This document shows positions 9,541 through 59,896 of a stretch of 64,000 nucleotides of DNA, one piece after another. Each line of letters starts with the position of its first letter. Positions within the stretch are counted from its first letter, which is position 1. The notes under the pieces are model-generated. The model ran no database searches. It saw nothing but the letters and a program-made list of their open reading frames with translations, and was not told the origin of the DNA. The position numbers and the translations under genes were made by a program. The DNA is from Myxococcales bacterium (GTDB taxonomy: Bacteria; Myxococcota; Bradymonadia; UBA7976; UBA1532): the NCBI GenBank assembly GCA_020633515.1, contig JACKDM010000017.1, positions 1 to 64,000 on the forward strand, written 5' to 3'.

Positions 9541-10833
9541 ATGACGGTGCGATGTCCCCAGTGCGGTGCGCGCAACGACGACGGCGCCCTCGGCCGGCCC
9601 TGCGTCTCGTGCGGCCGCACCCTGCCCGCCACCGCCGCCGGCCCCCGCGGCCAGAGCCTCCCGCCCCGCGGCGGCCGTGACCGCTACCCGCCCATCCAGG
9701 GCCTCGGCCTCGACGCCGACCCGCTCGACTTCGGCGCCCTCGGCCGCGCCCCCGACACCCTCGAAGACGGCCCCGGCGGCGGCCTCGGCGCCATGCCCAC
9801 CGGCGACGACGCCGATCCGCTCGACCTCGGCCGCCTCCTCGGCCGCGGCGAACCCGACGACCAATGGGGCGGCGGCGGCGGCTTCCGCTTCGGGCAGGAG
9901 CCCACCATCGAGCGCACCGAGCGCGGCCTCGGCTCGCTCGACGGCGGCTTCGCGGCCTTCGACGACGACGAAGAGGCCACCCGCGGCAACCTCATGGTGC
10001 AGATCCCGCCCGAGGCGCTCCGCGACAGCCTCGACCTGCCCCTCGCCGGCGGCCACCACGGCGAAGAAGACGAAGAGGAGTCCACCCGCGTCGTCGACCA
10101 GGGCTACGTCGAGCAGGCGATGAGCGAGGCCCCGCTCCTCCTCGCCGACGCGCCCCCCGTCGGCTGGCGGGTCCGCAACGAGCGCGGCGTCGTCTACGAG
10201 CTGATGACCGTCGACGCCGTCGTCGCCTGGCTCGAAGGCAAGCCCGACATCCGCGGCGTCCGCGTCGCCCGCGGCGACGGCGAGTTCCACGAGGTCGACG
10301 CCTTCCCCGAGCTCGCCGGCCGCCTCGGCGTCCGCGCGCCCGCCGAAGAGCTCCTCGCGCTCGACACCACCCGCGCCAGCGACCGCCACGGCGGCCGCAT
10401 CGGCGAGAACCGCGACCGCGGCCGCCCCGAGACCCGCGCCGCCGCCGCCGCCGCCCCCCGCGAACCGCAAGAGGAGCGCGTCGGCCTCGGCGTCGTCCTC
10501 GCCGCCATCGCCGCCGGCTTCCTCGCCGTCGCCGCGATCGTGCTCGTCGCCGTCGCCCTCGACTGGATGAGCCTCCCGCCCCCCATCGACGCCGAGGCGC
10601 CCGCCGCCGCCGCGCCCCCCTCCAAGCGCCTCGCGCAGGCCGTCGCCTCCTACGACGCCGGTCACTACGACGCCGCCACCAACCTCCTCCAAGCCCTCAC
10701 GCGCGAAGAAGACGACCCCCGCGTCTGGCGCTACCTCGCCCTCGCGCTGCATCAGAACAACCGCGAACCCGAAGCGCGACGCGCGCTCGCCGAGTACCGC
10801 CGCCGGATGCGCGGCGTGAACGGAGCCCGGTGA
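9541..10833 (+). CDS. Zinc-ribbon / GYF-like / TM / TPR protein
   Basis: 430 residues. A zinc ribbon begins at residue 5 (CPQC, then CVSC at 21-24), followed by a long acidic, Gly-rich linker. A GYF-like domain lies near residues 205-260 (VGWRVRNERGVVYEL to VDAFPEL). One membrane helix sits around residue 320 (VVLAAIAAGFLAVAAIVLVA). A short TPR-like tail follows (AVASYDAGHYDAATNLLQAL). The order implies a cytoplasmic N-terminus and a periplasmic TPR tail. The next gene has the same architecture and starts inside this stop codon, so the two are co-expressed paralogue-like partners. In Myxococcus, GltJ (AgmX) also joins an N-terminal zinc ribbon and GYF domain to a membrane helix, so a role in an Agl/Glt-type envelope complex is a reasonable inference. 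Confidence 0.7.
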   Translation: MTVRCPQCGARNDDGALGRPCVSCGRTLPATAAGPRGQSLPPRGGRDRYPPIQGLGLDADPLDFGALGRAPDTLEDGPGGGLGAMPTGDDADPLDLGRLLGRGEPDDQWGGGGGFRFGQEPTIERTERGLGSLDGGFAAFDDDEEATRGNLMVQIPPEALRDSLDLPLAGGHHGEEDEEESTRVVDQGYVEQAMSEAPLLLADAPPVGWRVRNERGVVYELMTVDAVVAWLEGKPDIRGVRVARGDGEFHEVDAFPELAGRLGVRAPAEELLALDTTRASDRHGGRIGENRDRGRPETRAAAAAAPREPQEERVGLGVVLAAIAAGFLAVAAIVLVAVALDWMSLPPPIDAEAPAAAAPPSKRLAQAVASYDAGHYDAATNLLQALTREEDDPRVWRYLALALHQNNREPEARRALAEYRRRMRGVNGAR

Positions 10834-13293
10834 ACGTCGAGTGCGAGAAGTGCGGCACCGCCTACGAGATCGACGACGCGCGCGTCTCCGAGGCGGCGAT
10901 CACCGTCAAGTGCACCCACTGCGGCCACATCTTCCGGGTCGAGCCCGACGACGGCCCGTTCTCCGACGGCCTCGGCACCCTCGACCCTCGCCCCGAGCGC
11001 CCCGTGCGCTGGCGTGTCCGCCGCCGTGACGGCACCCAGCTCTCGTTCGACGACATCGGCACCCTCCGCCACTGGATCCGCGACCGCAAGGTCAGCCGCG
11101 ACGACGAGGTCAGCAAGACCGGCGAGAGCTGGAAGCCCATCGGGCAGTTCATCGAGCTCGCCCACTACTTCGAGACCGGCAAGGGCTCCGAGCCCCCGGT
11201 CGCCGCCGACGCGCCGCCCCGGCCCCCCGCCAACCGCGAAGACCTCCTCGACGTCAGCGACGTCCGCCTGCAAGGGCTCGACGCCCAGAGCGACCTCTAC
11301 CAGCCGAGCAGCATGTTCGCGCCGCTCGAGATCGACCCCTCGCCGCCGCCCCGCGTCGCCCCCGACCGCCCCCTCGGCGGCCTCGACCTCTCCGTCGGCC
11401 CCCCGATCGCGCCCCCGATCCTCGACGACCTCGGCGCCCGCCCGGCAGGACGCCCCGCCTCGGGCCCCCCGCCCGTCGTCTCCGCGCCGCCCAACCGGAT
11501 CAGCGCCCGCCCCTCGCTGCACGGCCGCCCGCCGCCCGCGCCCCCGCGCCGCGCGCCCGCCGCCGCGCCGCCGCGCCGCCCGCAGCCGAGCGCCCCGCCG
11601 CCGCCCGCCGCCCCGCCGCCGCCGCGGCCGCCGAGCGCCCCGCTCGGCCCGCCGCCGCCCGGCATGCGCCGCCCGCCCAACACCGGCTCGCTGCGACCGC
11701 CCAACACCGGCTCGCTGCGCCCGCCCAACAACACCGGCTCGCTCCGCCCGCCGGCACCGGCTCCGTCCGCCCGCCGCCCGCCCGCGCCAGCTCCAGCCGC
11801 CTCCCCGCGCACCGCGACAGCGCGCCCGGACTGCCCGCCGCCGGCGCTGCCGCGCCGCCCCGCGCACCCGCGAGAGCGTCGTCGTCGACGGCGTCCGCCG
11901 CCCCGCGCCCCCCGGCCGCCCCGGACCGCGCCGCGACGGCCTCCCCCCGCACCGCGACAGCACCGGCGGCCTCGACATGGCCTTCGACGGCGAGGCCCCG
12001 CCCACCTACGCCGCGCAAGCGCAGAACGGCACCGGCCGCGGCTTCCTCATGGGCGTGCTGACCATGCTCGCCCTCGCCGGCGTCGGCTACTTCGTCTACG
12101 ACAACTTCGTCCGCCCCCGCGACCCGCTCCCCGTCGCGCCCGCGCCGCCGCTCGCCGGCGCGCCCGACGTCACCCGCGCCCTCGACCGCGCCGCCGCCGC
12201 CTGGACCCGCGACAGCGAGGTCGCGCTCGGCGAGGCGCTCGACGCCTACGAAGAAGCCCTCCGCCTCCTCGGCGCTCCGCCCGCCGATCCCGCGCTCGCC
12301 GCCCGCGCCCACGCCGGCGTCGCCCGCGTCGCGCTCGCCCGCGCCGAGTACGCCCGCGCCGACGGCGACACCGCCCGCGCCGACGCCGAGCTCGCCACCG
12401 CCGACCGCGCGCTCACCGACGCCCGCACCCTCGGCCAGGACGTGCCCGGCCTCCGCCTCGCGCTCGCCGAGCTGCACCGCCTCCGCGGCGAGGCCGAGCT
12501 CGCCGCCGCCTACCTCGAACAGGCCAAGGCCGAGCCCGGCGCCGCCGCCGAGGCCGCGCTCATCACCGCCGCGCTCCCGCTCTACGGCCCCGAGCCGGCG
12601 GCCGCCGCCGCCCGCCTCGACCTGCTCACCCCCGACGCCCGCGCGCTCCCGCGCGCCCCCTGGCTGCACGCGCTCGCGCTCAAGACCGCCGGCCGCGCCG
12701 CCGAGGCCCGCGGCGTCCTCGAAGCGCTCCTCGCCCGCAACCCCGAGAACGAGCCCGCCCGCCGCCTCCTCGCCGGTCTGCCCGGCGCGATCGACCCCGC
12801 CGCCGTCGACGCCGACGTCCCCGACGCCGCGCCGCCGCCCCCGCCCCCCGTCGAACGCCCCGCGCCCCCCAAGCCCGACCCCAAACCCGACCCCAAACCC
12901 GACCCCAAGGCCCGGCCCGACCCCGAACCGCGCGCCGAATCCTTCGACGACCTGATGGACCGCGGCAACCGCCTCCTCGAACAAGGCAAGGCCGCCCAGG
13001 CCCGCCGCGTCTTCGAAGACGCCGCCCGCCAGCGCCCGCAGAGCCCCGAGCCCCTCGCCAGCCTCGGCTGGTGCGAGCTCGACGCCGGCCGCCATTCGCA
13101 GGCCATCCGCCACTTCGAACGCTCGCTCGAGAAGAACCCCCGCTACGCCGACGGCATGTATGGCCTCGCGACCGCCTACGAGCGCGCCGGCATGCGCGAA
13201 CAGGCCAAGAACGCCTATCAGGCCTACCTCAACGTGCACCCCCGCGGCAGCAAGGCCGGCATCGTCACCCGCAAGCTCGAGTCGCTCCGCTGA
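10830..13293 (+). CDS. Zinc-ribbon / GYF-like / Pro-rich / TM / TPR protein, two apparent frameshifts
   Basis: The gene opens at GTG 10830, overlapping the previous stop. An MJ0042-type zinc ribbon (Cys 5, 8, 28 and 31) is followed by a GYF-like domain ([14 protein letters not shown] to [14 protein letters not shown]). A long Pro-rich linker with TGSLRPPN repeats comes next, then one TM helix ([20 protein letters not shown]) and TPR repeats to the C-terminus ([20 protein letters not shown]). The N-terminal part is in one frame and the TM/TPR part in another. The switch happens in two steps, near 11752 inside the tandem repeat and between about 11810 and 11880. No stop codon interrupts either frame, so one protein of about 821 residues is most likely, with sequencing indels the simplest explanation. 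Its layout resembles the N-terminal half of GltJ/AgmX. Confidence 0.65.
11670..11767 (+). repeat. Tandem 24-bp coding repeats (RPPNTGSL)
   Basis: Four copies of CGCCCGCCCAACACCGGC plus six bases run from 11670: 24, 24, 27 and 23 bases long. The third carries an extra AAC codon. The fourth is one base short, exactly where the gene loses its frame, so the last copy probably hides a missing base. Confidence 0.8.
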
Positions 13294-13357: not shown

Positions 13358-14407
13358 GTGAAGCCCGCCGCCCCCCCCGTGATCGACTGGCGCGGCGACG
13401 CGCTCGCCCTCCTCGACCAGCGCCTGCTCCCCACCGAAGAGACCACCGTCGTCTGCACCGACTGGCCCGCCGTCGCCGACGCCATCAAGGCCATGGTCGT
13501 CCGCGGCGCCCCGGCCATCGGCATCACCGCCGCCTACGGCGTCGCGCTCGCCGCCCGCCACCGCCAACCCCGCCTCGACGCGCTCCGCGACGCCCTCGAC
13601 GGCCTCGCCGCCACCCGCCCCACCGCCGTCAACCTCTTCTGGGCGCTCCGCCGCATGCAGACCCGCCTCGAAGCCCTCGCCACCGCCCCCGTCGCCGACG
13701 CCCGCGCCGCGCTCGAAGCCGAAGCCATCGCCATCCACGACGAAGACCGCGCCATGTGCGCCGCCATCGGCCGCCACGGCGCCGCGCTCCTCCCCGAGCG
13801 CGCCCGCGTCCTCACCCACTGCAACACCGGCGCGCTCGCCACCGGCGGCGACGGCACCGCGCTCGCCGTCATCCGCCGCGCCTGGCGCGACGGCCGCCTC
13901 ACCCGCGTCTACGCCGACGAGACCCGCCCCTTCCTCCAAGGCGCCCGCCTCACCGCCTGGGAGCTCCACCGCGAAGGCATCCCCACCCATGTCATCACCG
14001 ATGGCATGGCCGCCTTCATGATGGCCCGCGCCGAGATCGACGCCGTCATCGTCGGCACCGACCGAATCGCCGCCAACGGCGACGTCGCCAACAAGATCGG
14101 CACCTACGGCCTCGCCGTCCTCGCCGCTGCCCACGGCCTCCCCTTCTACGTCGCCGGCCCCACCAGCACCCTCGACCTCGCCACCCCCGACGGATCCGCG
14201 ATCGCCATCGAGCGCCGCCCCGACCGCGAGGTCACCCACGTCGGCCCCACCCGCATCGTGCCCGAGGGCGTCGCCGTCGAAAACCCCGCCTTCGACATCA
14301 CCCCCGCCCGCCTCGTCACCGCGATCATCACCGAGCACGGCGTCATCCGCCCCCCCGATCCCGCCGCGCTCGCCGCCCACGTCGCCCGCGCCGATCACAA
14401 TCGTTGA
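13358..14407 (+). CDS. mtnA: S-methyl-5-thioribose-1-phosphate isomerase
   Basis: Converts 5-methylthioribose-1-phosphate to 5-methylthioribulose-1-phosphate in methionine salvage (EC 5.3.1.23). The 349-residue protein shows [29 protein letters not shown] (with the catalytic Cys), [17 protein letters not shown], and [18 protein letters not shown] with the catalytic Asp, then [10 protein letters not shown]. The GTG start at 13358 follows GGAGA at good spacing; the in-frame opening upstream lies inside the preceding gene. No other methionine-salvage gene is nearby. Its stop codon overlaps the -35 element of the next operon's candidate promoter. Confidence 0.93.
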
Positions 14408-14432
14408 CAAGCCCCCGAGATCCCCATACCCT
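14404..14432 (+). promoter_or_regulatory. Candidate sigma70-type promoter of rplU-rpmA-obgE
   Basis: TTGACA (14404-14409), 17 bases, TACCCT (14427-14432), about 95 bases before the rplU start. The -35 overlaps the mtnA stop codon. The perfect -35 and ideal spacing make it the best sigma70 match in the window. Confidence 0.6.
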
Positions 14433-14527
14433 TCGCCGCCCGTCGACTCGTGCGTGCGCAGCCGTGCCCCGAGCCGACGAGAGACTTGAAGCCCCCCGCG
14501 GGGGCCATCCCGGCGACGGAAGACTCC

Positions 14528-14839
14528 ATGTACGCGATCATCAAGACCGGCGGTAAGCAGTACCGCGTCAGCGAAGGGCAGACCCTGCGGGTGGAGAAGC
14601 TCGACGGCGAGAAGGGCGACAGCGTCCGCCTCGGCGACGTGCTCCTCCTCGGCGGCGAGGGCCAGACCCGAATCGGCACCCCCCTCCTCGAAGGCGCCGC
14701 CGTCGAGGCGCAGATCGTGCGCCAGGCCCGCGCCAAGAAGATCATCGTCTTCAAGAAGAAGCGGCGGAAGGGCTACCACAAGAAGCAGGGCCACCGTCAG
14801 TACTACACCGAGCTGAAGATCACCGGCATCAGCGCCTGA
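14528..14839 (+). CDS. rplU: 50S ribosomal protein L21
   Basis: 103 residues beginning [14 protein letters not shown], the L21 hallmark. The conserved basic C-terminal region [15 protein letters not shown], which binds 23S rRNA, is present. An in-frame opening extends upstream to 14450, but the ATG at 14528 gives the normal protein. First gene of the widely conserved rplU-rpmA-obgE unit. Confidence 0.97.
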
Positions 14840-14876
14840 TCCGGCCCACGCCCGCCACCCGAGGGAGCAAGCGAAG

Positions 14877-15170
14877 ATGGCACACAAGAAAGGCCAGGGC
14901 AGCACCCGCAACGGCCGCGACTCGAACCCCAAGTACCGCGGCGTCAAGCGCTTCGACGGGCAGTTCGTCCGCGCTGGCGGCATCATCGTCCGCCAGTGCG
15001 GCACCCGCATCCACCCCGGCGAGAACGTCGGCGTCGGCCGCGACTACACCCTGTTCGCGCTCGCCGACGGCTACGTCAAGTTCGAGCGCAAGGGCCGCGA
15101 CAAGAAGCGCGTCGCCGTCTACGCCGAGCCCTACGCCCGCGAGGTCCCGGCGGCCGAACAGGCGGTCTGA
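14877..15170 (+). CDS. rpmA: 50S ribosomal protein L27
   Basis: 97 residues beginning [19 protein letters not shown], the flexible L27 N-terminus that reaches the peptidyl-transferase centre. It begins directly with MAHKKG, so there is no cleavable extension of the kind seen in Firmicutes. GAGGGAG precedes the ATG. In the gap before obgE, CTCGCG (15181) and CGCGAG (15212) could form a hairpin, but no T-run follows, so I do not call a terminator. Confidence 0.97.
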
Positions 15171-15245
15171 GCCTGCACTGCTCGCGCCGCCGCCCTCCCC
15201 GGCGCCGCCGTCGCGAGTGAAGGCGCCCCGCCCGGAGACCTCCCG

Positions 15246-16274
15246 GTGAAGTTCATCGACGAAGCAGAGCTGACGGTCCGCTCCGGCAACGGCGGCGACG
15301 GCTGCGTCAGCTTCCGCCGCGAGAAGTACGTGCCCCGCGGCGGCCCCGACGGCGGCGACGGCGGCCGCGGGGGCGACGTCATCCTCTACGCCGACCCCAA
15401 CCTCGCCACGCTCCTCGACCTCCGCTACCGCCGCACCTACAGCGCCGACAACGGCCGCCCCGGCGGCGCCGCCAACATGACCGGCGCCGACGGCGCCGAC
15501 GTCCGCGTCCGCGTCCCCGTCGGCACCCAGGCCTTCGACGCCGAGACCGGCGAGCTCCTCGTCGACCTCATCGAGCCCGACGCCACCTACGTCATCGTCC
15601 GCGGCGGCAACGGCGGCCGCGGCAACGCCGCCTTCGCCACCCCCTCCCGCCGCACCCCCGACTTCGCCAAACCCGGCGGCCGCGGCGAAGAGCGCGCCAT
15701 CCGCCTCGAGCTCAAGCTCATCGCCGACGTCGGCCTCGTCGGCTTCCCCAACGCCGGCAAGTCCACCCTCATCAGCCGCATCAGCCGCGCCCGCCCCAAG
15801 ATCGCCGACTACCCCTTCACCACCCTCACCCCCAACCTCGGCGTCGTCGCCGTCGACGTCGCCCGCAGCTACGTCGTCGCCGACATGCCCGGCCTCATCG
15901 AAGGCGCCGCCGACGGCGCCGGGCTCGGCCACCGCTTCCTCCGCCACATCGAGCGCACCGCGCTCTTCGTCTTCCTCGTCACCCAGGACCTCGCCCCCGG
16001 CCGCGACCCCATCGCCGACTACCACGCGCTCCGCCACGAGCTCGGCCGCTACGACGAAGACCTCCTCACCCGCCCCACCCTCGTCGCGCTCTCGCAGTGC
16101 GACCGCCCCGAGGTCGCCGAACAGCTCGACGCCGTCCGCGCCGCCCTCGGCGAAGACGTCTCCGTCTTCCCCATCTCCGCCGTCACCGGCCAGGGCCTCG
16201 ACGCGCTCCACAAGGCCATCGCCGACGCCCTCACCGCCGCCGGCCGCTGGGGCGAAGCCCGCGACGACTGGTAG
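15246..16274 (+). CDS. obgE: Obg-family GTPase
   Basis: Essential ribosome-associated GTPase of 342 residues. The Gly-rich Obg domain begins MKFIDEAELTVRSGNGGDG and contains GGPDGGDGGRGGDV. The G domain has GFPNAGKSTLIS (G1), TTLTPNLGVV (G2), DMPGLIEGA (G3, with Met in place of the usual Thr of DTPG-like forms) and SQCDRPE at the G4 position, where NKxD is usual. GTG start with GGAGACC upstream. The normal C-terminal OCT domain is absent, as in many Gram-negative orthologues. Confidence 0.95.
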   Translation: MKFIDEAELTVRSGNGGDGCVSFRREKYVPRGGPDGGDGGRGGDVILYADPNLATLLDLRYRRTYSADNGRPGGAANMTGADGADVRVRVPVGTQAFDAETGELLVDLIEPDATYVIVRGGNGGRGNAAFATPSRRTPDFAKPGGRGEERAIRLELKLIADVGLVGFPNAGKSTLISRISRARPKIADYPFTTLTPNLGVVAVDVARSYVVADMPGLIEGAADGAGLGHRFLRHIERTALFVFLVTQDLAPGRDPIADYHALRHELGRYDEDLLTRPTLVALSQCDRPEVAEQLDAVRAALGEDVSVFPISAVTGQGLDALHKAIADALTAAGRWGEARDDW

Positions 16275-16392: not shown

Positions 16393-17004
16393 ATGCACCC
16401 GCGCCCGCGCAGCGCCATCGCCCTCAGCCTCCTCTGGGCCAGCCTCGCCGCCGCGGATCCCCCCGCCGATCCCGCCGCTCACCGCCGCCGCATCACCGAG
16501 ATCGAACAGCGCGTCGCCGCGCTCAAGGAAGAGGTCTTCCGCCACAAGAGCCGCCTCGCCGCGCTCGAAGAGACCGTGCTCCAAAGCGAGATCGCCGCCG
16601 CCAGCGCCCGCATCGTGCACCGCAACGAGATGGGATCGAGCTTCCGCCTCGAACACGTCAGCTACCGCCTCGACGGCGAGCTCATCTTCGAGCGCACCGA
16701 CGCCACCGGCGCGCTCGACGACGAGACCGAGATCGAGCTCTGGCGCGACGCGATCGTGCCCGGCGACCACACCCTCGCCGTCGTGATGGTCTACCGCGGC
16801 GACGGCTTCGGCGTCTTCAGCTACCTCCAGAGCTACGTCTTCACGCTCCGCTCCTCGCACACCTTCCATGTCGACGCCGGCGAGCAGATCACCGTCGAGA
16901 TCGTCGGCTACGAAGACGGCGGCGTCGCCACCGACCTCACCGAGCGACCGAAGGTGCGCTTCGACGACACCCTCCAGAGCCCGACGCGCCCCGGCGGCGG
17001 CTGA
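16393..17004 (+). CDS. Secreted coiled-coil plus beta-domain protein, unknown function
   Basis: 203 residues. A signal peptide (SAIALSLLWASLAAA) is followed by a short coiled coil (residues about 30-65, RRRITEIEQRVAALKEEVFR) and then a beta-rich domain (FRLEHVSYRLDGEL, GDHTLAVVMVYRGDG, VDAGEQITVEIVGYEDGG). I recall similar small proteins next to TPR and TolQ/TolR genes in Myxococcota, some carrying a misleading dihydrolipoamide acetyltransferase label, but I see no lipoyl or acyltransferase motif. It is followed after one base by the large TPR gene, so it probably works in the same periplasmic complex. Confidence 0.65.
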   Translation: MHPRPRSAIALSLLWASLAAADPPADPAAHRRRITEIEQRVAALKEEVFRHKSRLAALEETVLQSEIAAASARIVHRNEMGSSFRLEHVSYRLDGELIFERTDATGALDDETEIELWRDAIVPGDHTLAVVMVYRGDGFGVFSYLQSYVFTLRSSHTFHVDAGEQITVEIVGYEDGGVATDLTERPKVRFDDTLQSPTRPGGG

Positions 17005-17005
17005 C

Positions 17006-20506: not shown

Positions 20507-21850
20507 GCACCGCCCGCCGCGAGCGCCCCGCGCGCGCCGATCGAGCCACCCCCGCCCGCCCCGCCCCCGGCGCCGCGCTGTGCCGCGCTCCTCACCCTGC
20601 TCGCGCGCGCCGCCTGCGCGCGCCCCACCTCACCGCCCGCGCCCCGCCGCCGCCCCGCCCCCACCCCCGCCGCCGCCCCCCCTGCCCGCCCCCGCGCCCC
20701 CCGCCGCCGCTCGATCTCATCGCCGACGCCGCCGCGCCGCCGCCGCCCGCCGCGGCCTCACCACCGCCGAGGCCCGCTACCGCGACGCCCTCGCCCGCCC
20801 CGCCCGACCCCGACGTCCTCTACGACCTCGGCGTCCTCGCCGAATGGCAAGGCCGCCCCGACGACGCCCGCGCCCGCTACCGCGACGCCCTCACCCGCGA
20901 CCCCACCCTCGGCCCCGCCGTCGTCGCGCTCGGCCGCCTCCTCATCCGCGCAGGCGACCCCCAGGGCGCGCTCCGCCTCGCCCGCGACCAGCTCGACCCG
21001 CGCCCCCGACGCCCCCGCGCTCCGCAACGCCCTCGGCCGCCTCCGCCTCGACGCCGGCCTCGAGCTCGACGCCAGTCGAAGCCGACGCCAAGGCCGTGCT
21101 CCGCGACGACGAGAAGAACGTCGACGCCATGATCAACCTCGCCGCCGCCTACCACCACGACGGCCGCCACGAGCTCGCCATCGCCATCCTCGACAACGCC
21201 CGCGCGCTCCGCCCCGACGACCCCGAGATCCTCGCCCGCAAGGCCCTCGCCCACCGCGCCCTCGGCGAAGACCAACGCGCCCGCTTCGCGCTCGAAGAGG
21301 CCACCGCGCTCCCCGGCGGCGCCACCGCCGAGGTCCACAACAACCTCGGCCTCATCTACCACGCCGCCGGCGACTACCCCGGCGCCGAAGCCCAGTTCCG
21401 CCGCGCCCTCGCCCGCTGGCCCGGCATGCTCGCCGCCACCATCAACCTCGCCAACGCCCTCAAAGGCCAGCAACGCTTCGCCGAAGCCGACGCCGCGCTC
21501 CAGCAAGCCCTCGCCCGCGCCCCCCGCGACCCCGACGTCCTCTACAACCTCGGCATCCTCTACCTCGACGGCCAGCTCCCCGACCTCGCCCCCGCCGACC
21601 GCCTCGGCCGCGCGCTTGCGTTTTTCGAACGCTACCAGCAGACTGCCACCCATCGCGCCGCCGACGATCCGGCCGCCGAGTACATCGAAGAGGCGCGCAA
21701 GCGCATCGAGGTCGAGCGCAAGCGGGCCGAGCAGCAGCGCACCGCCCCCAAGCGCCGCCGCCGCCCGATCCGCCGCCTCCGGCCCCCGCCGCCGCCGGAT
21801 CACCGCCGGCCCGCCGCCGCACCCGAGCCGCCGACGAAGACGAAAAGTGA
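20503..21850 (+). pseudogene. TPR lipoprotein-like gene broken by several frameshifts
   Basis: The probable start (GTG 20503) overlaps the previous stop and the probable end (TGA 21848-21850) overlaps the next start, so the gene boundaries look intact. The coding signal in between jumps frames at least six times: a lipobox-like LLARAAC near 20600, AEARYRDALA near 20765, DPDVLYDLGVLAEWQG near 20810, ALRNALGRLRLDAGLELDA near 21020, then a long clean TPR stretch 21075-21760 (VDAMINLAAAYHHDGRHELA, VHNNLGLIYHAAGDY, DVLYNLGILYLDG), and a last frame ending ADEDEK. Restored, it would be an about 450-residue TPR lipoprotein, comparable with GltE/AglT. Sequencing indels in GC homopolymers are more likely than decay, because the repeats themselves are well kept. 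Confidence 0.6.
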
Positions 21851-22202
21851 CCCGCACGCCTCGCCATCGCCACGCTCCTCCTCGCCGCGCCCGCCGCCGC
21901 CCAGCCCGCGCCCGCGCCGCTGCTGCCACCCCGACCGCCGCCGCCCCGCCGCCGCCGCGCCTGCGCCCGCCGCCGCCCGCCGCGCCCGCCGCGCGACCGC
22001 CGCCGCGACCGCCCCCGCCCGCCTCGGACGCCGCGATCCGCGCGTCATCGAGATCGACGACGTCGTCGTACAGGGCGAGGTCCAGCGACCCGAAGCCTTC
22101 TACGTGCTCCAGCGCAGCGAGCTCGACTTCAAGGGCCAGGAGCCCCGCCGCAGCTTCATCCCGCTCATCATCCAGAGCGTCGAAGAGGAGCCGTTCCGAT
22201 GA
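21847..22202 (+). pseudogene. Small exported protein, apparent frameshifts
   Basis: Opens at GTG 21847, overlapping the previous stop. A signal-peptide-like run (LAIATLLLAAPAAAQP) appears in a second frame from 21860, then a Pro-rich linker. The conserved-looking C-terminal part is in a third frame from about 22032 (DPRVIEIDDVVVQGEVQRP, AFYVLQRSELDF, SFIPLIIQSVEEEPF). Restored length is about 118 residues. I cannot name the family. Its position just before the TolQ-like gene, and the EVQRPEAFYVLQR style of its end, suggest a periplasmic accessory protein of the same machine. Confidence 0.5.
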
Positions 22203-22337: not shown

Positions 22338-22354
22338 GGGTTGCAAAACAACCC
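22338..22354 (+). other. Small hairpin in the TolQ leader
   Basis: GGGTTG (22338-22343) and CAACCC (22349-22354) pair perfectly around the five-base loop CAAAA, about 85 bases before the start codon. There is no T-run, so it is more likely a leader structure than a terminator. Confidence 0.3.
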
Positions 22355-22438
22355 GAGGCTGGCCAAGAGGGTCAGGCGCGAGCGAGAGACTGCAGCGCAC
22401 AGCGCATCAGCTCTTCACCCCACAGGAGGAAACGACGA

Positions 22439-23092
22439 ATGGGTGGTGTTGCGAAGTTCTACTCTGATGGTGGTGCCTGGATGCACCCCATCCTCTTCAT
22501 GAGCGTCATCGGCCTCGGGGTGATGATCGAGCGCTTCATCTTCTTGTACTTCAAGTACAACATCAACGCTCAGGCGTTCATGGCGCAGATCCAGAAGCTC
22601 GTGATGGCCAACAACATCGACCGCGCCATCAAGCTCTGCAACGCCGCGCCGTCGGCCGCGCTCCCCAAGGTCATCAAGGCCGGTCTCACCCGCGCCAACA
22701 AGGGCCCCGAGGAGATCCAGAACGCGGTCGAGGAGGCCACCCTCGAGGTGGTGCCGATCGTGACCAAGCGGACCACCGTGCTCCAGCAGATCGCCAACAT
22801 CGCGACCCTGCTCGGTCTGCTCGGGACCATCCTCGGTCTGATCGAGGCGTTCGACGCGCTCGCCAAGCCCGACATCCCGCCCGACCAGCGGCAGGCGCTG
22901 CTCGCCAACGGTATCGCGATCGCGATGAACACCACCGCGTTCGGCCTCATCGTGGCGATCCCCTGCCTCGCCGCCCAGGTGTTCCTCACCTCGGTCACCA
23001 AGAAGATCATCGACGAGATCGACCAGTACTCGGTCAAGCTCGAGAACCTTCTCATCTCGCGGCTCCACGGTGGGGCCGGCGAGAACCGCTGA
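22439..23092 (+). CDS. MotA/TolQ/ExbB-type proton channel subunit
   Basis: 217 residues with three membrane helices. The first is near residues 15-40 (ILFMSVIGLGVMIERFIFLY). The second and third lie in the conserved TolQ/ExbB core (LQQIANIATLLGLLGTILGL and ANGIAIAMNTTAFGLIVAIP). It would form the stator channel with the two TolR-like products downstream and turn proton flow into motion. A strong AGGAGG lies before the ATG. One TolQ followed by two TolR homologues is the layout of aglR-aglQ-aglS, the Myxococcus gliding and sporulation motor; a Tol-Pal or ExbBD role is less likely because no tolB, pal or TonB receptor gene is near. Confidence 0.88.
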   Translation: MGGVAKFYSDGGAWMHPILFMSVIGLGVMIERFIFLYFKYNINAQAFMAQIQKLVMANNIDRAIKLCNAAPSAALPKVIKAGLTRANKGPEEIQNAVEEATLEVVPIVTKRTTVLQQIANIATLLGLLGTILGLIEAFDALAKPDIPPDQRQALLANGIAIAMNTTAFGLIVAIPCLAAQVFLTSVTKKIIDEIDQYSVKLENLLISRLHGGAGENR

Positions 23093-23178
23093 GCGACCTC
23101 ACTGTCAGGCCCTCGGCGCGGCGGTGAGCCCCACCGCCGCGCGCTGACGAGAGACCCTCAGCCGGAGTGAAGTGAGCC

Positions 23179-23784
23179 ATGGCGCGCAGCAAGAAGAAGA
23201 TGAAGGTCGACGAGAAGATCGAAGACCTCAACCTGGTCCCGATCATGAACCTCGTCGTGTGCCTCATCCCGATGGTGCTCGTGGGGATGTCGCTGGTGAA
23301 GATCGGCGTCATCAACGTGAACGCGCCCCGCTTCGGGATGGGTCAGGCGGAGCCCTCCGATGACGAGGACAAGCCCCTCGGGCTGACCATCGCCATCGCC
23401 GAGGACGGCTTCCGGTTGACCGCGACCGGCGCCGACATCAACGCCGAGCTCGGCGAGACCCCCACCGCGCCGGCCGCCGCGGACGCGCCCCCTCAGCCGG
23501 GCGTGTTCATCCCCAAGAGCGGCGAGGTGTACAACTACTCCGAGTTGTACAACAAGCTCGTCAAGATCAAGGAAGGTCACCCCGACGAGACCATCGTCAA
23601 CATGACCGCCGACGCGAAGATCCCGTTCAAGTACGTCATCGCCGTGATGGACACCATGCGCTTCGAGCTCGAGCAGAAGTCGTACTCGGACGCCAAGGAC
23701 TTCACGGCGGCCAGCATCATGATGGACCGCGGTCAGCAGAAGCTGCTGTGGCCCGACGTCGTCTTCGCGGTCGCGCGGCAGTAA
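23179..23784 (+). CDS. TolR/ExbD-family protein lacking the membrane Asp
   Basis: 201 residues with one N-terminal membrane helix (residues about 17-40) and a periplasmic domain. The family motif N-x-V-P-L-L-D-V-L-L is clearly recognisable as NLVPIMNLVV, but the proton-carrying Asp is Asn here (residue 24). The C-terminal part (IPFKYVIAVMDTMRFELEQK) matches the TolR periplasmic fold. It lies between the TolQ-like gene and a second TolR homologue that keeps its Asp. The loss suggests it is a structural rather than a proton-conducting subunit. Confidence 0.85.
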   Translation: MARSKKKMKVDEKIEDLNLVPIMNLVVCLIPMVLVGMSLVKIGVINVNAPRFGMGQAEPSDDEDKPLGLTIAIAEDGFRLTATGADINAELGETPTAPAAADAPPQPGVFIPKSGEVYNYSELYNKLVKIKEGHPDETIVNMTADAKIPFKYVIAVMDTMRFELEQKSYSDAKDFTAASIMMDRGQQKLLWPDVVFAVARQ

Positions 23785-23797
23785 GGGGGCGGGAGCG

Positions 23798-24376
23798 ATG
23801 CAGCACAAGTCTCGCGAAGAGATCATCTCCGAGTGGGTGGCCGAGCAGGCCGCGGCGCAGCGCGAGGGGCGCAAGTCACATCGTCAGATCGAGAGCGAGG
23901 CGACCGTCACCATCAACTCGTTGATGGACGCCATGACGATCATCCTCGTCTTCCTCCTGATGAACTACTCGATCGACCCCCTGCGGGTCGACGCGGGTGA
24001 GGACCTCAAGCTCCCGCCGTCGACGACCGAGATCAACCCCGACCCGAGCGCGACGGTCACCGTCACGGCGAAGGGCATCGTGGTCAACGACAAGATGGTC
24101 GTCGACATCGCCAACGGCGAGGTCGACAAGGTCAAGAAGGGCGGCGACGAGAACTCGCTTCAGATCCACCCGCTCTTCGAGGCCCTCAACGAAGAGGCGA
24201 CGCGGCAGAAGGAGATGGCCCGGCTCACCGGCGCCCGCTTCGACGGCCTGCTGACCGTCATCGCGCACCAGGAGACGCCCTACCGCTTGATCACCGAGGT
24301 GCTCTTCACCGCGGGTCAGGCCGAATTCTCGCGGTACAAGTTCGCGGTGCTCAAGGGCGGCCAGCGCGGCATCTGA
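23798..24376 (+). CDS. TolR/ExbD-family protein with conserved membrane Asp
   Basis: 192 residues. After a charged, helical N-terminal 35 residues, longer than usual, the membrane segment INSLMDAMTIILVFLLMN carries the expected Asp (residue 44). The periplasmic domain follows (ATVTVTAKGIVVNDKMVVDI) and ends LITEVLFTAGQAEFSRYKFA. It begins 13 bases after the first TolR-like gene. Together with the TolQ-like product it should form the working proton channel. A good hairpin terminator follows. Confidence 0.87.
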   Translation: MQHKSREEIISEWVAEQAAAQREGRKSHRQIESEATVTINSLMDAMTIILVFLLMNYSIDPLRVDAGEDLKLPPSTTEINPDPSATVTVTAKGIVVNDKMVVDIANGEVDKVKKGGDENSLQIHPLFEALNEEATRQKEMARLTGARFDGLLTVIAHQETPYRLITEVLFTAGQAEFSRYKFAVLKGGQRGI

Positions 24377-24403
24377 CCGTTCCTCTGCGGTGTGAAGATC
24401 GAT

Positions 24404-24440
24404 GACGCCCCGTCGGAAGCCCCGGCGGGGCGTCGTTGTT
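24404..24440 (+). terminator. Rho-independent terminator after the TolQ/TolR genes
   Basis: GACGCCCCG (24404-24412) pairs perfectly with CGGGGCGTC (24426-24434) across a 13-base loop, followed by the T-rich GTTGTTTC. It separates the motor genes from the FHA/AgmX-PglI gene, which could be reached by read-through or its own promoter. Confidence 0.65.
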
Positions 24441-24527
24441 TCTGGCGATCGATCGAGCCCGGTCGGCACATGGCATCGCCGCCCGGCGCGCCCGGGCGAG
24501 CGCCTGCGGGCGGCGAAAGGACGCTGA

Positions 24528-25901
24528 ATGGCCCACGGCGGTGACCGCAAGATCCTGCGCTGCGGGGTCGTCCAGAACGGTCAGCTCATCGAGGAGCGGC
24601 TGCTGCGCAAGCGCGCCGCGGTGAGCCTCGGGCAGTCGCCGCGCAACACCTTCGTCGTGACGGCGCCCGGAGTGCCGCGTGCGCTCGTGCTCTTCGAGGT
24701 GCACGGCGGCGTCTACCACCTCGCCTTCCGCCCCGGCCTCAACGGCAAGCTCGCCGTCGACGGGAGCGTGCTCGACTTCCGCGCGCTGCGCGAGCAGAAG
24801 CTCGCCCGCAAGCTCGGCGACCGCTACCTCGTGCCGCTCGACGCGCAGAGCCGCGGCAAGGTCGTCGTCGGCGACGTCACCGTGCTCTTCCAGTTCGTCG
24901 CCCCGCCGCCGCGCCCCGCGCCCGCCACGATGCCGCGCGCCTTCCGCGGCGGCTGGCTCCGCCTCTTCGACTGGCCCTTCGTCGTCGCGCTCCTCGCGAG
25001 CTTCGTGGTGCAGGTCTTCCCGATCACCTGGATCGTCAGCCAGGACTACCCCGAGCCGCCGCGCGGGCTCGACGCGCTCCCCGACCGCTTCGTGACGATG
25101 CTGATCGACGAGAAGCCGCCGGTCGAGGAGGAGAAGCCGGAGGAGAAGCGCGAGGAGAAGGACAAGAACCCCGAGCCCAAGCCCGAGCCGAAGCCCAAGG
25201 AGAAGCCCGAGCCCGCGCCGGTCGAGCGCACGCCCGAGCAGGTCGCCGAGCAGAAGGCGGTCGAGATGCGCCGCATGCAGAAGGCGGTGCGGCAGAAGAC
25301 GATCCTCAGCGTGATCGGCACCGAGGGCGGCGACGGGCCGGCGTCGTTCATCAACACGCTGCGCGACGGCGCGACCGACGTCGCGATCGCGGAGGCGTTC
25401 GACGGGACCTCGGGGATCGAGTTCGCCGGCGCGCCGACGACCGAGCGCGCGGTCGCGGGCGGCGAGATCGGCGACGTCGCCGGGATCGACGCCGGCGCGC
25501 TGCGCACCTCGACCGAGCGCCGCGCGGTCACCACCGGGCAGAAGGCGCCCGAGGTCGCGGTGCGCGGCTCGGTGGTCGCAAAAGACGTCGAGGAGTCGTT
25601 CGGCACCGGCACCCTCGACCAGCGCGAGATCAAGGGCGTCGTCAACCGCCGCATGGGCGCGATCAACGGCTGCTATGAGAAGCAGCTCAAGCGCAACCCG
25701 AAGCTCGCCGGCAAGGTGGGGGTGCAGTTCACCATCCTCGAGAGCGGGCGGGTCGGCGAGGTGCGGATCGTCGAGGACACGATCGGCGACGGCGAGGTCG
25801 CGCGCTGCATCACCGCCCGGATGCGCGGCTGGCGCTTCCCGCCGCCGGCCGGGGGCGCGGTGACGGTGCGGTTCCCGTTCATCTTCGAGCCGGCGGGGTG
25901 A
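24528..25901 (+). CDS. FHA-like / TM / AgmX-PglI C-terminal domain protein (GltG-like)
   Basis: 457 residues. The N-terminal 125 residues look like an FHA beta-sandwich (AAVSLGQSPRNTFVV, then LNGKLAVDGSVLDF), though the usual Ser-x-x-His is not evident, so phosphothreonine binding is doubtful. One membrane helix at about 150-172 (FVVALLASFVVQVFPITWIV) is followed by a Pro/Glu/Lys-rich spacer. The last 95 residues form the AgmX/PglI-type domain with its two conserved Cys (AINGCYEKQLKRNPKLAGKV and VARCITARMRGWRFPPP). GltG (PglI) of Myxococcus has the same order: FHA, TM, TonB-like end. It probably spans the periplasm and couples the TolQ/TolR motor to the outer membrane. Confidence 0.8.
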   Translation: MAHGGDRKILRCGVVQNGQLIEERLLRKRAAVSLGQSPRNTFVVTAPGVPRALVLFEVHGGVYHLAFRPGLNGKLAVDGSVLDFRALREQKLARKLGDRYLVPLDAQSRGKVVVGDVTVLFQFVAPPPRPAPATMPRAFRGGWLRLFDWPFVVALLASFVVQVFPITWIVSQDYPEPPRGLDALPDRFVTMLIDEKPPVEEEKPEEKREEKDKNPEPKPEPKPKEKPEPAPVERTPEQVAEQKAVEMRRMQKAVRQKTILSVIGTEGGDGPASFINTLRDGATDVAIAEAFDGTSGIEFAGAPTTERAVAGGEIGDVAGIDAGALRTSTERRAVTTGQKAPEVAVRGSVVAKDVEESFGTGTLDQREIKGVVNRRMGAINGCYEKQLKRNPKLAGKVGVQFTILESGRVGEVRIVEDTIGDGEVARCITARMRGWRFPPPAGGAVTVRFPFIFEPAG

Positions 25902-25905
25902 GCTT

Positions 25906-25935
25906 TTGACCCGGTGGCACCGCGCCTGCTACAGC
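25906..25935 (+). promoter_or_regulatory. Candidate promoter before the secreted protein gene
   Basis: TTGACC (25906-25911), 18 bases, TACAGC (25930-25935). It overlaps a possible TTG start at 25906. The real ATG at 25951 would then have a short leader with GGGAGG at 25938. Confidence 0.35.
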
Positions 25936-25950
25936 AGGGAGGATCGTGAG

Positions 25951-26592
25951 ATGGCTGGAGCGCGCGTGATCCGGCGAGGAGCGGCGGTGGTGTCGGCTCG
26001 CTCCGGTGACCGGCGCCGTGGGATGCCGACGATGCTTCGACTCGTGCCGCTCGCCGCCGCGCTCGCGCTCTTTGCGGTGCTCGCGCCGTCGGACGCGGCG
26101 CTCGCACAGCAGCCGAGCCCCTACCCGCGCGCCGCGGCGCTCGATCCGGCGACGCAGCGCACCGCCGCCGGCCGCGCGGTCGCGGCGATGAAGGCCACCC
26201 TCGACGCCGCCCGCGCCCGCTTCGAATCGGCCCGCGAGGCCGAAGACCTCGTGCAGCTCAACTGCGTCGGCGAGAAGCTCGCCGCGCTTAAGGGGCTGCT
26301 GCGTACCGCCGAGGAGTCGGCCGGCGCGCTCGCCGAGGCGATCGAGCAGGGCGAGCGGCTCCTCGCCGATCACGCGTTCACCCGGGTCAGTGTCGCCGCC
26401 GAGCGCGTCGCCGAGCTGCGCCTCGAGGTCGAGAGCTGCGTCGGGGCGACGAGCCGCTACGCCGGCGAGACGAGCATCGACCTCGACGTGGCGCCGGGCG
26501 TGCGTGCAGACGACCCCTCGCAGAGCGACGCGCCGCCGGTCTTCACCGCGATCAACACCGAGCGGCCGCCGGCCGTCAGCGGCAGCCGGTAG
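25951..26592 (+). CDS. Secreted helical protein, unknown function
   Basis: 213 residues from ATG 25951 (GGGAGG seven bases upstream). A signal peptide (MLRLVPLAAALALFAVLAP, ending ALAQ) begins about 24 residues in, so a start at 26023 is also possible. The mature part is alpha-helical with two Cys (LNCVGEKLAAL and VESCVGATS) that could form a disulphide, and a disordered C-terminus. I do not recognise the family. Its position between the GltG-like gene and the outer-membrane pair suggests an envelope role. Confidence 0.55.
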   Translation: MAGARVIRRGAAVVSARSGDRRRGMPTMLRLVPLAAALALFAVLAPSDAALAQQPSPYPRAAALDPATQRTAAGRAVAAMKATLDAARARFESAREAEDLVQLNCVGEKLAALKGLLRTAEESAGALAEAIEQGERLLADHAFTRVSVAAERVAELRLEVESCVGATSRYAGETSIDLDVAPGVRADDPSQSDAPPVFTAINTERPPAVSGSR

Positions 26593-26639
26593 CCTCGCGG
26601 CCGGCGACCTCCCTCCCTGCCACGGCCGTCGAGGACTGC

Positions 26640-28217
26640 GTGCCCGAGCTCTCCCCTTCACCCGCGACGCCCCGGAGGCGCCCCGCGCGCCGGCCCGGCG
26701 GGGGAGGGGACGGCGCGGTGTCGTCGGGTCGGTCGGGCGGCGGCGGGCGAGGCTCCTCGGCAGAAGGTCGCGAGATCGCGGGGTCGCCGCGGGTGACGCT
26801 CGCTTCGCGCGGTCGGGGTGAGACGGCGCGAACCCACCGCGCGGGCGGGTCGCGCCCGGTGATCTCGGCGGCGCTCATCTGCGCCGCGCTCGCCGCGCTC
26901 GCCTACGCCGCGCCGGCGGCGGCGCGCGAGGGGCCGGGGCTGCGCAGCGCGCGGTGGGTCTTCCACCCCCGGCTCGAAGTCGGCGGCGCCTACGACTCCA
27001 ACTTCTTCCGCGACGCGCCCGACGAGGACGCCGCGCCGCTCGATCCGGTGTGGCACCTCGACTTCGAGGCGGCGGCGCGGCTCCGCAACCGCGACCCGCG
27101 CCGGCTCGGCGTCGACCTCGACCTCACCGCCGGCTGGCGGCAGCTCTTCGACGTGGCGGACGAGCCCGGCGAGGCGGAGCACGCCGATCGGCAGCTCGAC
27201 GCGCGCAGCGGCTTCGACGCGATCCGCGGCCGACTCACGCTCGCGATCGCGCCGCGCGCCGCGTTCTCGGTCGGGCTCGAAGCGACCGGGCGCTACACCG
27301 ACGAGCCGGCGGCCGATCGCCTGTTCGACGAGGCGTTCCAGCGGCTCGAGATCGAGGCGGGGCCCGACCTGCGCTTCCGTCCGGGGGACTCGCCGGCGAG
27401 CCGGGCGCTCGAGATGACCCTCGGCTATCGCTTCGCGGCGCTGCGTTACCTCGACCTCGCGCCGGCGCTCGGGACGGCGCGCGGGCAGAAGGACACCCAC
27501 AAGCTCCAGCTCGCGACGCGGTGGAACTTCTTCCCCAAGACCGCGGCGCTGCTCGACGTGCGGCTCTGGGTGGTCAACTACCCCGAGGTGAGCGACCGGC
27601 TCGGGGCCTCGCAGGCGTCCTCGCCCGACAAGGATCTGACGCCGCTGCGGGTCGAGGCGGGGCTGCGCGGGCTGCTGACGCGGCGGCTGTCGGCGACGGT
27701 GAAGGGCGGGCTCAGCCACAGCTTCAACGCGAGCGGCGAGAGCTACCAGGGCTTCATCGGGCGGCTCGAGCTCGACTACCGGCTCGAGCCGCGGCTGACG
27801 GTGCGGCTCGGTTATGCGCGGGAGCTCGACGACGACGCGTTCGCCAGCTACTACGTGCTCGACCGCTTCTTCGCGGCGGCGACGGTGAACCTGCCGGCGC
27901 GGCTCTCGCTGTCGGCGCGGCTCGGCTACGACCGCCTCGACTACAGCAGCGCGTCACAGCCGCGCTTCGTCGATGGCGAGCGGGTCGAGCCGGTGCTGCG
28001 TGGCGAGGCGGCGCTCGCGTGGGCGTTCGCCGAGCCGCTCTCGCTCGTCGCGAAGTGGTCGCTCGAAGACAACCGCTCCGACTTCTGCTACCGCCTCGAC
28101 CTCAGCGGCGAGCCGTGCGCGACCGCGCCGCTCAACCCGGAGTCCGGGCGGCCGCAGATCGAGCGGGCGGGCTTCACCCGCCATTTGTTGTCGCTGACGG
28201 TGCGGGCGTCGTATTGA
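26640..28217 (+). CDS. Outer-membrane beta-barrel, Wzp-like partner of OPX
   Basis: 525 residues as written from GTG 26640 (GAGG upstream). The first 70 residues are low-complexity, so a later GTG at 26793 is possible. A signal sequence (ISAALICAALAALAYAAPAAA) precedes alternating amphipathic beta strands, typical of an outer-membrane barrel (FHPRLEVGGAYDSNFFRD, LSLSARLGYDRLDYSS), and it ends with an aromatic-rich strand (LLSLTVRASY). It is eight bases from a short Wza-like lipoprotein. In Myxococcus, short OPX proteins are paired with 18-strand Wzp barrels that supply the missing outer-membrane pore; this pair fits that model. A Glt-complex barrel (GltA/B/H) is the alternative. Confidence 0.68.
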   Translation: MPELSPSPATPRRRPARRPGGGGDGAVSSGRSGGGGRGSSAEGREIAGSPRVTLASRGRGETARTHRAGGSRPVISAALICAALAALAYAAPAAAREGPGLRSARWVFHPRLEVGGAYDSNFFRDAPDEDAAPLDPVWHLDFEAAARLRNRDPRRLGVDLDLTAGWRQLFDVADEPGEAEHADRQLDARSGFDAIRGRLTLAIAPRAAFSVGLEATGRYTDEPAADRLFDEAFQRLEIEAGPDLRFRPGDSPASRALEMTLGYRFAALRYLDLAPALGTARGQKDTHKLQLATRWNFFPKTAALLDVRLWVVNYPEVSDRLGASQASSPDKDLTPLRVEAGLRGLLTRRLSATVKGGLSHSFNASGESYQGFIGRLELDYRLEPRLTVRLGYARELDDDAFASYYVLDRFFAAATVNLPARLSLSARLGYDRLDYSSASQPRFVDGERVEPVLRGEAALAWAFAEPLSLVAKWSLEDNRSDFCYRLDLSGEPCATAPLNPESGRPQIERAGFTRHLLSLTVRASY

Positions 28218-28224
28218 TCGGCCC

Positions 28225-28818
28225 GTGACCCGCCTCCTCCCCGCGCTCCTGCTCGTGACGCTCGCTTCGTGCGGCCCGCCGCCGTCACCGGCGCTGCCGC
28301 CGATGCCCGACCTGCGGGCGCTGACCTCGGGCGGCGCGCTCGGGGCGGGCGACGTCATCGAGGTGCGGGTCTACCAGGAGAAGGAGCTCTCGGGCCTCTA
28401 CCGCCTCGGGCCGGACGGGCGCTTCGACTTCCCGCTCGTCGGCGAGGTCGTCGCCGAGGGGCTCACCCCGGGGCAGCTCACCGATCTGCTCGCGCAGCGG
28501 CTCCGCGACGGCTACCTGCGCGATCCGCAGGTGAGCGTCTTCGTCAAAGAGGCGAACTCGAAGAAGATCTTCGTGCTCGGCGAGGTGGCGCGGCCGGGGA
28601 CCTTCCCCTACCAGGACCAGATGAGCGTCGTGCAGGCGATCACGCTCGCCGGCGGGCTCAAGGGGCTCGCGGCGGGCAACCGGGTGGTGCTGACGCGGGT
28701 GGTCGAGGGGGTCGAGCAGAAGTACGTCGTGCCCTTCGACGACATCAGCAACGGGCGGGCGCCCAACGTGCCGTTGCAGCCGGGCGACATCCTCTACGTG
28801 CCGGAGTCGTGGCTCTAA
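28225..28818 (+). CDS. Short polysaccharide export (OPX, Wza-like) lipoprotein
   Basis: 197 residues. A lipoprotein signal (LLPALLLVTLASC) is followed by the Poly_export domain (GAGDVIEVRVYQEKELSG, FPLVGEVVAEGLTPGQL) and one SLBB domain (IFVLGEVARPGTFPYQDQ, LTLAGG-like ITLAGGLKGL), ending PGDILYVPES. It lacks the extra domains and the C-terminal amphipathic helix with which Wza crosses the outer membrane, so it should need a separate barrel, likely the gene just upstream. No glycosyltransferase, Wzc or Wzx/Wzy gene is in the window, so the exported polymer is made elsewhere or is not the standard kind. Confidence 0.88.
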   Translation: MTRLLPALLLVTLASCGPPPSPALPPMPDLRALTSGGALGAGDVIEVRVYQEKELSGLYRLGPDGRFDFPLVGEVVAEGLTPGQLTDLLAQRLRDGYLRDPQVSVFVKEANSKKIFVLGEVARPGTFPYQDQMSVVQAITLAGGLKGLAAGNRVVLTRVVEGVEQKYVVPFDDISNGRAPNVPLQPGDILYVPESWL

Positions 28819-59893: not shown

Positions 59894-59896
59894 GCC

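Follow-up and report, generated by a model that had tools for sequence, protein, structure and literature searches.

We present here a gene cluster that joins an Agl/Glt-type motor complex to a polysaccharide export pair, found in 64,000 nt of DNA (the window) from a Myxococcales bacterium (assembly GCA_020633515.1, contig JACKDM010000017.1, positions 1-64,000, forward strand). The source is an uncultured Myxococcota-like bacterium, and the GC content of the window is 68-77% (4-kb steps). The cluster (Table 1) is a one-direction gene run on the + strand at 16393-28818, which starts after mtnA-rplU-rpmA-obgE and is followed by a gene in the opposite orientation. We consider it fairly probable that its products form a motor-coupled translocon: an Agl/Glt-type machine, powered by protons and spanning the envelope, that acts on polysaccharide leaving the cell.

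Table 1. Features of the cluster and its upstream neighbours, with window coordinates
Feature	Coordinates	Strand	Basis or remark
Sec1, secreted, coiled-coil-like N-terminus	16393..17004	+	first cluster gene, after obgE
GltD-like TPR protein, 1,166 aa	17006..20506	+	TPR_6, YfiO matches
GltE-like TPR gene, frame-broken in assembly, ends unsure	20506..21860	+	frame analysis, NF033758
GltF/CglF-like small secreted protein, frame-broken in assembly, start unsure	21860..22202	+	NF033764
TolQ/AglR-like motor subunit	22439..23092	+	PF01618, TolQ trees
TolR1 (AglQ position), Asn24 at expected proton-carrying Asp site	23179..23784	+	PF02472, residue tables
TolR2 (AglS position), Asp44 kept	23798..24376	+	PF02472, residue tables
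GltG-like: FHA fold, TM helix, linker, TonB-like AgmX/PglI C-terminal domain	24528..25901	+	NF033768, AlphaFold2, Foldseek
Sec2, secreted	26023..26592	+	profile matches in 66/80 loci
Outer-membrane beta-barrel, WzpB/EpsX-like, 18 strands	26859..28217	+	AlphaFold2
Short OPX protein, 197 aa, Poly_export + SLBB only	28225..28818	+	PF02563 + SLBB
Zinc-ribbon/TM/TPR protein 1, candidate member	9541..10833	+	Zn_Ribbon_1, below cut-off
Zinc-ribbon/TM/TPR protein 2, frame-broken near 11.9 kb, candidate member	10830..13293	+	PF13717, TIGR02098
mtnA, rplU, rpmA, obgE: housekeeping neighbours, not counted in machine	13358..16274	+	

Gene content

A preliminary description of this DNA had proposed a complete, compact relative of the Agl/Glt machinery, and its family assignments were largely recovered by profile searches. 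The 1,166-residue protein is a TPR protein, as described, and its profile matches the GltD position of an Archangium C-D-E-F-G cluster at 448 bits. The TPR gene reported as broken does change frame within 20.5-21.9 kb; its longest piece scores 40.7 bits against NF033758 GltE (cut-off 225), with other TPR families scoring higher, and NF033758 is the best match of the intact Archangium copy, at 91.9 bits. A small gene at about 21.86-22.2 kb had been missed. It is a relative of CglF/GltF, is also frame-broken, and has NF033764 CglF as its only NCBIfam match (18.4 bits, cut-off 90). The one TolQ (PF01618 MotA_ExbB, 92 bits) and two TolR homologues (PF02472 ExbD, 42 and 41 bits) are present as claimed.

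The protein described as FHA-like, with a transmembrane (TM) helix and an AgmX/PglI end, scores 111 bits against NF033768 (cut-off 40). It is most like GltG (NF033760, 162 bits, below the cut-off of 650) and scores 56 bits (cut-off 450) against the GltJ model. Its FHA domain was recognised by fold only, the Pfam scan having detected none: the AlphaFold2 model has an FHA fold at about residues 8-125, a helix at 149-171 taken as TM, and then a TonB-like end, and the best PDB match found by Foldseek is an FHA domain, as are most of the 50 matches listed. Among the secreted proteins, Sec1 has no family over cut-off and Sec2 no match in the Pfam and NCBIfam scans.

The locus falls short of the complete set first supposed. 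None of GltA, B, H, I, J, or K was recognised among the scanned cluster proteins, and no GltC-like gene lies between Sec1 and GltD in the window. A GltC search of the two nearest genomes (G009 and G010) gave only weak TPR matches of at most 44 bits. Archangium has an extra TPR gene before GltD, for which GltC is the best family.

Frame changes occur in three window genes (GltE-like, GltF-like, and the second zinc-ribbon gene), all within GC-rich tracts, and one of the two nearest genomes (locus L116) has intact GltE-like and GltF-like frames, the former as a single frame. On these grounds assembly or sequencing error is the likelier explanation of the breaks, and pseudogene status of the GltE-like gene is disfavoured.

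Conservation across Myxococcota

Relatives were found with an alignment of 33 GltG-like proteins of the window's family, and the best 80 of 314 were taken as loci, a sample that for this reason favours this GltG subfamily. The order Sec1-(GltC)-GltD-GltE-GltF-[TolQ-TolR-TolR]-GltG-Sec2-barrel-OPX (outer-membrane polysaccharide export) recurs in Myxococcota. Profiles of window proteins matched in 69 (GltE-like), 68 (barrel), 66 (Sec2), 65 (small protein), 64 (GltD-like), 58 (OPX), 40 (Sec1), and 35 (TolQ) of the 80 loci, many of which are truncated at contig ends. The GltC-like gene of Archangium gave 51 matches above 150 bits across these 80 loci. Where at least 5.5 kb follows GltG (59 loci), the barrel is present in 57 and the OPX gene in 52. 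Where at least 9.5 kb precedes GltG (47 loci), GltD-like and GltE-like genes are each found in 46, the small protein in 40, and TolQ in 23. Since it recurs in dozens of loci, the arrangement is not a matter of chance.

The barrel/OPX linkage looks specific to this GltG subfamily, because the window's OPX protein has only one to three matches per genome in 13 whole genomes, and in one Archangium genome the ~20 kb around each of three other GltG-type genes gave neither a barrel nor an OPX match at E<=0.01. Synteny in relatives includes the conserved neighbourhood with GltG and TPR genes by which the preliminary description was to be judged. The link that it drew between motor and polysaccharide export is sustained by the barrel and OPX counts, and the Agl/Glt-type core complex with its own motor by protein families, TolQ clade (below), and neighbourhood.

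Phylogeny of the motor and GltG

Myxococcus xanthus has paralogous clusters G3 (nfs), G4 (with the gltD homologue MXAN_1922), and G5 (MXAN_1327) and a motor M2 (MXAN_3003-3005) (Luciano et al. 2011, PMC3169522). That paper assigns no function to G4, G5, and M2, whose mutants have no appreciable motility defect. The M2 protein MXAN_3003 is reported to bind neither GltG nor NfsG (PMC3858216).

In a 60-row TolQ tree, the in-cluster copies form one clade (91/92) with two other rows and four orphan copies from Archangium, two Myxococcaceae metagenome-assembled genomes (MAGs), and one Myxococcales MAG. One in-cluster row (L058) stands outside on a long branch, and a second TolQ set from the same genomes (5 rows, 100/100) is apart from the clade. 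Five of the six outgroup rows of this tree were scanned, and none is over the TolQ/ExbB cut-off (best 70-89 bits of 221). The test was therefore repeated with a 76-row tree that includes seven rows found by the curated TolQ model (four over cut-off) and 16 other TolQ/ExbB-like rows, with the long branches L058 and L110 left out. It has an Agl-type clade of 53 rows (100/99), inside which lies the cluster clade of 40 rows (100/99). The seven TolQ rows, three of them fragments (L208, L210, and L211), do not form one group.

This placement bears on the possibility that the genes encode a general envelope-maintenance motor like Tol-Pal, its neighbourhood with the export pair being historical. TolQ/TolR and TPR (YbgF/BamD-like) families are indeed common to Tol-Pal, but the cluster's TolQ falls in the Agl-type clade, apart from the curated TolQ and the TolQ/ExbB-like rows (no known over-cut-off ExbB is in the tree), so that the grouping with Tol-Pal or ExbBD, by which the preliminary description would have been refuted, did not occur. 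Four of the eight genomes searched have a separate TolQ over the curated cut-off, the cluster has two TolR genes, and neither TolB nor Pal was recognised in it. A Tol-Pal-like or ExbBD-like origin was rejected on the clade placement, and a maintenance motor is highly improbable.

The first TolR has 160-165 aa in the second TolQ set and 177-182 aa in the orphan set; M. xanthus AglQ has 162 aa (PMC3169522, Table 1). From these lengths we take the second set to be AglRQS (M1) and the orphan set M2, an AglR label that comes from AglQ-like length and not from M. xanthus sequence. Six of the seven examined genomes without an in-cluster motor (G001, G002, G005, G006, G007, and G008) carry a TolQ of the cluster clade elsewhere. 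Divergent TolQ gene pairs 0.6-0.9 kb apart were seen in four places (G005:C250, G263:C130, G019:C2, and G187:C1); in G005 each gene has its own two TolR (L092 and L095), giving two motors back to back.

In the GltG tree, a branch with SH-aLRT 100 separates the OPX-linked proteins from GltG proper and two further Archangium paralogues; the three Archangium paralogues meet on long branches. Motor and GltG form a subfamily of their own, to which the uncharacterised G4 and M2 of M. xanthus probably belong. A gliding motility machine of an uncultured myxobacterium would also account for the homology to AglRQS and GltC-G and for the GltG score given above. Against it, the cluster proteins reach none of the gliding equivalog cut-offs (GltE, GltF/CglF, GltG, and GltJ), TolQ and GltG are apart from the AglR-like and GltG-proper rows, the gliding components GltA, B, and H-K were not recognised in the cluster, and the M. 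xanthus G4 and M2 mutants lack an appreciable motility defect (PMC3169522). We regard gliding as very unlikely and, on subfamily and cut-offs, rejected the gliding set proper as an identification.

Aspartate pattern in TolR

At the aligned proton-binding Asp site, TolR1 of the window has Asn24 and TolR2 has Asp44; the AglQ-like copies examined keep the Asp, unlike window TolR1. The pattern was computed from TolQ-TolR-TolR triplets. After 17 overlapping loci were set aside from 205, there were 149 TolQ matches, 137 of them with two TolR, and 125 unique triplets. Additional motors came from 27 loci and 60 regions, all taken from the top of the match list for 182 matching genomes of 282; some listed rows were passed over, including sites where a match was split or held a stop codon. 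Because of how loci and motors were chosen, the proportions that follow are not population frequencies.

By TolQ score, 116 of the 125 triplets are of the cluster's motor type. TolR1 has lost the Asp and TolR2 has kept it in 101 of these (Asn 84, Ser 11, Ala 3, Gly 3), the reverse holds in three (Gly 2, Ala 1), both residues are kept in 12, and both are lost in none. The other nine triplets (M1-like and others) keep the Asp in both TolR. The named strain Lujinxingia vulgaris (L076) is of the Asn/Asp type. Three TolR1 rows and one TolR2 row showed another key residue in a second alignment; the residues counted here were checked by eye. On a tree built without the two Asp columns (quick search, no bootstrap), three changes are required in TolR1 and a single one in TolR2. 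Many rows thus share a small number of loss events, and the zero among 116 does not amount to 116 independent tests. The TolR2 losses are nested in a clade with the TolR1 Asp kept, and in the TolR1 clade of L041, L061, L064, and L069 the Asp has apparently been regained inside a clade that lost it. The TolR1 membrane helix of these four loci is TolR2-like, as though the adjacent gene had served as its template.

Loss from one TolR or the other, never from both in this sample, is most simply read as pairing of TolR1 with TolR2, one Asp per pair being enough, and it suggests a heterodimer that has a single proton site. According to PMC9389320, it is not known whether AglQ pairs with AglS or each with itself; the same paper reports that Asn at the Asp site mimics protonated Asp in MotB. 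In M. xanthus, AglQ D28N abolishes conductance (PMC3858216); the native Asn at that place here makes it conceivable that a motor runs on a single proton site per axle.

Export pair

The outer-membrane barrel of the preliminary description is supported by an AlphaFold2 model with 18 strands and a mean pLDDT of 84.4, for which a start at about 26859 is better than 26640. Compared with the PDB, the model resembles porins and receptors, AlgE included, at TM-scores of ~0.3-0.55; the score against the EpsL model is 35.6 bits (cut-off 275). The OPX assignment likewise stands, with PF02563 (Poly_export) and SLBB matches and a lipobox-like LASC noted by eye. The pair resembles the composite OPX/beta-barrel translocons EpsY/EpsX, ExoA/ExoB, and WzaB/WzpB (PMC9601211, PMC9603273): the OPX protein is short (197 aa; composite type, <=280), has the Poly_export and SLBB domains only, lacks a membrane-spanning C-terminus, and is encoded 7 bp from the 18-strand barrel. 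It differs from them in being joined to a motor.

In 14 of 51 loci, OPX is followed by a Wzc-like gene no more than 3.5 kb away; the representative of this family has Wzz, GNVR, and AAA_31 domains, one representative having been scanned per downstream gene family. In G013 (the genome of L028), a Wzz match lies 2.6 kb after OPX, beyond the end of the locus. Wzy_C, glycosyltransferase, and UDP-sugar dehydrogenase families occur downstream of OPX in two to four loci each. The Wzz family is found in 11 of 13 genomes, over cut-off in 9.

Between GltG and Sec2, several kb of inserted DNA in loci L015, L016, L028, L033, and L035 encode a large protein (the one scanned has FG-GAP/beta-propeller matches), and 9 of the 13 loci with inserts at this place encode a small protein (the one scanned is cNMP-binding).

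Zinc-ribbon genes and other features of the window

Two genes upstream of mtnA had been described as zinc-ribbon/GYF-like/TM/TPR proteins of uncertain membership. The second protein has a zinc ribbon over cut-off (PF13717, 51 bits; TIGR02098, 38 bits), while that of the first stays under its threshold (Zn_Ribbon_1, E=0.007); at E<=0.05, Pfam showed a GYF domain in neither protein. A relationship to GltJ was rejected, as only the ribbon of the second protein matches GltJ, at 19 bits. The idea that a zinc-ribbon/TPR gene is a displaced GltC was not supported, there being no GltC-like match above 44 bits in G009 and G010. Both of the closest genomes carry the second gene at the corresponding position before mtnA (L116, and L117 as far as that locus extends), a position that the other loci searched do not reach; a search for the first gave no match in eight loci, all of which end before its expected place. 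The housekeeping profiles matched in 13 (obgE), 11 (rpmA), and 7 (rplU) of the 80 loci.

Convergent with the cluster, a gene on the - strand at 28820-30397 encodes three carboxypeptidase-regulatory-like stretches and a C-terminal PDZ domain. Named by eye, an isc-type iron-sulphur operon (MerR/IscR-like regulator, cysteine desulfurase, scaffold, IscA, HscB, and HscA-like) lies on the - strand at 40518-45752, and cbb3-type cytochrome oxidase and maturation genes lie on the + strand at 56666-64000. An Rfam search of the window gave nothing at gathering score.

Probable counterparts in Myxococcus xanthus

MXAN_1915/1916 are WzaB (OPX) and the barrel WzpB, the export pair of the biosurfactant polysaccharide (BPS) (PMC9601211, PMC9603273). 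Archangium locus L023 has a run of eight genes, GltD, GltE, GltF, GltG, a cNMP-binding protein, Sec2, barrel, and OPX, which fits MXAN_1922 down to 1915, since the gene counts are equal; on this numbering MXAN_1919 would be the GltG homologue. The cluster would then be the counterpart of M. xanthus G4 plus WzaB/WzpB, with M2 as a displaced motor. The GltC/D/E/F/G-type gene set is the same, the locus numbers fit, and an orphan TolQRR of the same TolQ clade is present in Archangium and relatives. Differences from G4/M2 are that the window has its motor inside the cluster, lacks GltC, has a TolR1 without Asp, and has no cNMP-binding gene between GltG and Sec2. Among the matches listed in the open-licence literature, no paper joins G4 with WzaB/WzpB, and MXAN_1922 occurs in Luciano et al. 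alone, which has no MXAN_191x tag. None of the best 120 of 1246 protein matches to the Archangium OPX is named as M. xanthus.

Proposed mechanism and alternatives

In the motor-coupled translocon that we propose, a TolQ wheel around a TolR1-TolR2 axle would use the proton gradient, with TolR2 alone carrying the proton-binding Asp in the window. The motor would drive GltG, whose FHA fold is predicted to be cytoplasmic and whose TonB-like tail would reach into the periplasm. The GltD-, GltE-, and GltF-like proteins may pass force to the barrel and short OPX, the sole cluster components recognisable as outer-membrane proteins, which together would make up a composite channel for export. The most likely role of the motor is to move, gate, or tension this channel or the polymer inside it.

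The same core families make up the Agl-Glt gliding machine, from which the cluster differs in the missing components and subfamilies given above, and the Agl-Nfs spore-coat machine, in which the same core complex, with one TolQ and two TolR, acts with polysaccharide (PMC3858216). Nfs differs in borrowing AglRQS, in having its export genes (exo) at a separate locus, and in having NfsA, B, and H; the cluster has its own TolQRR, and no NfsA/B/H-like proteins were recognised in it. The main rival of motor-coupled export is a surface transporter like Nfs, in which export would be independent of the motor, the exported polymer would be carried around the surface, and the genes would be linked by their common cargo. 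The core components are homologous, and Agl-Nfs moves Exo after export, the Exo export sites not coinciding with Nfs (PMC3858216). However, no Glt/Nfs outer-membrane module (A, B, and H) was recognised in the cluster, although one elsewhere in the genome is possible, and the one recognised barrel is of the export type and follows GltG in nearly all loci with room for it. For these two reasons we favour motor-coupled export and consider an Nfs-like transporter unlikely.

Several points weigh against the reading that we favour. Transport is separable from export in Nfs (PMC3858216). Five loci (L017, L018, L020, L024, and L058) have the barrel with no OPX nearby, and two of the 59 (L071 and L078) have neither. 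No Wzc-like gene was found in 37 of the 51 loci, within examined stretches of at most 8 kb and far shorter in some, and no polysaccharide synthesis genes were recognised beside the window's OPX gene, a further difference from the composite translocons. In G011 (the genome of L007), no TolQ of the cluster clade is among those placed in the tree, which implies that the transducer can do without a cluster-type TolQ or borrow another. The G4/M2 equivalence is drawn from gene numbers and Archangium synteny rather than from M. xanthus sequence. Finally, a polar MXAN_1922 mutation had no appreciable effect on motility (PMC3169522), while a motility (swarm) defect is reported for BPS-negative cells (PMC7310880); if MXAN_1922 is in one operon with BPS export, a similar defect might be expected of its mutant. 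The lack of a phenotype in this mutant, as reported for motility, weighs also against the Nfs-like transporter.

A more specific form of the proposal is tentative, and we hold it possible with the balance somewhat against it. It describes a motor-powered exporter in which the OPX/barrel channel is driven through GltG by a motor of the AglRQS type. The TolR1-TolR2 heterodimer of this motor would be obligate, with exactly one Asp left per axle in most of the members sampled, and G4 and M2 would be the transducer and motor of BPS export.

Implications

One proton site per axle would be unexpected for a symmetric two-site rotary cycle, and the loss of the Asp from either TolR, never from both in the sample, provides natural evidence on the AglQ/AglS dimer question. 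The proposal offers a testable function for G4 and M2, to which PMC3169522 assigned none, and connects a motor with MXAN_1915, an 'orphan-like' OPX gene. Should the motor have a part in export, the Wzx/Wzy type of export would gain a proton-motive step at the outer membrane, one that goes unmentioned in the portions of the literature consulted.

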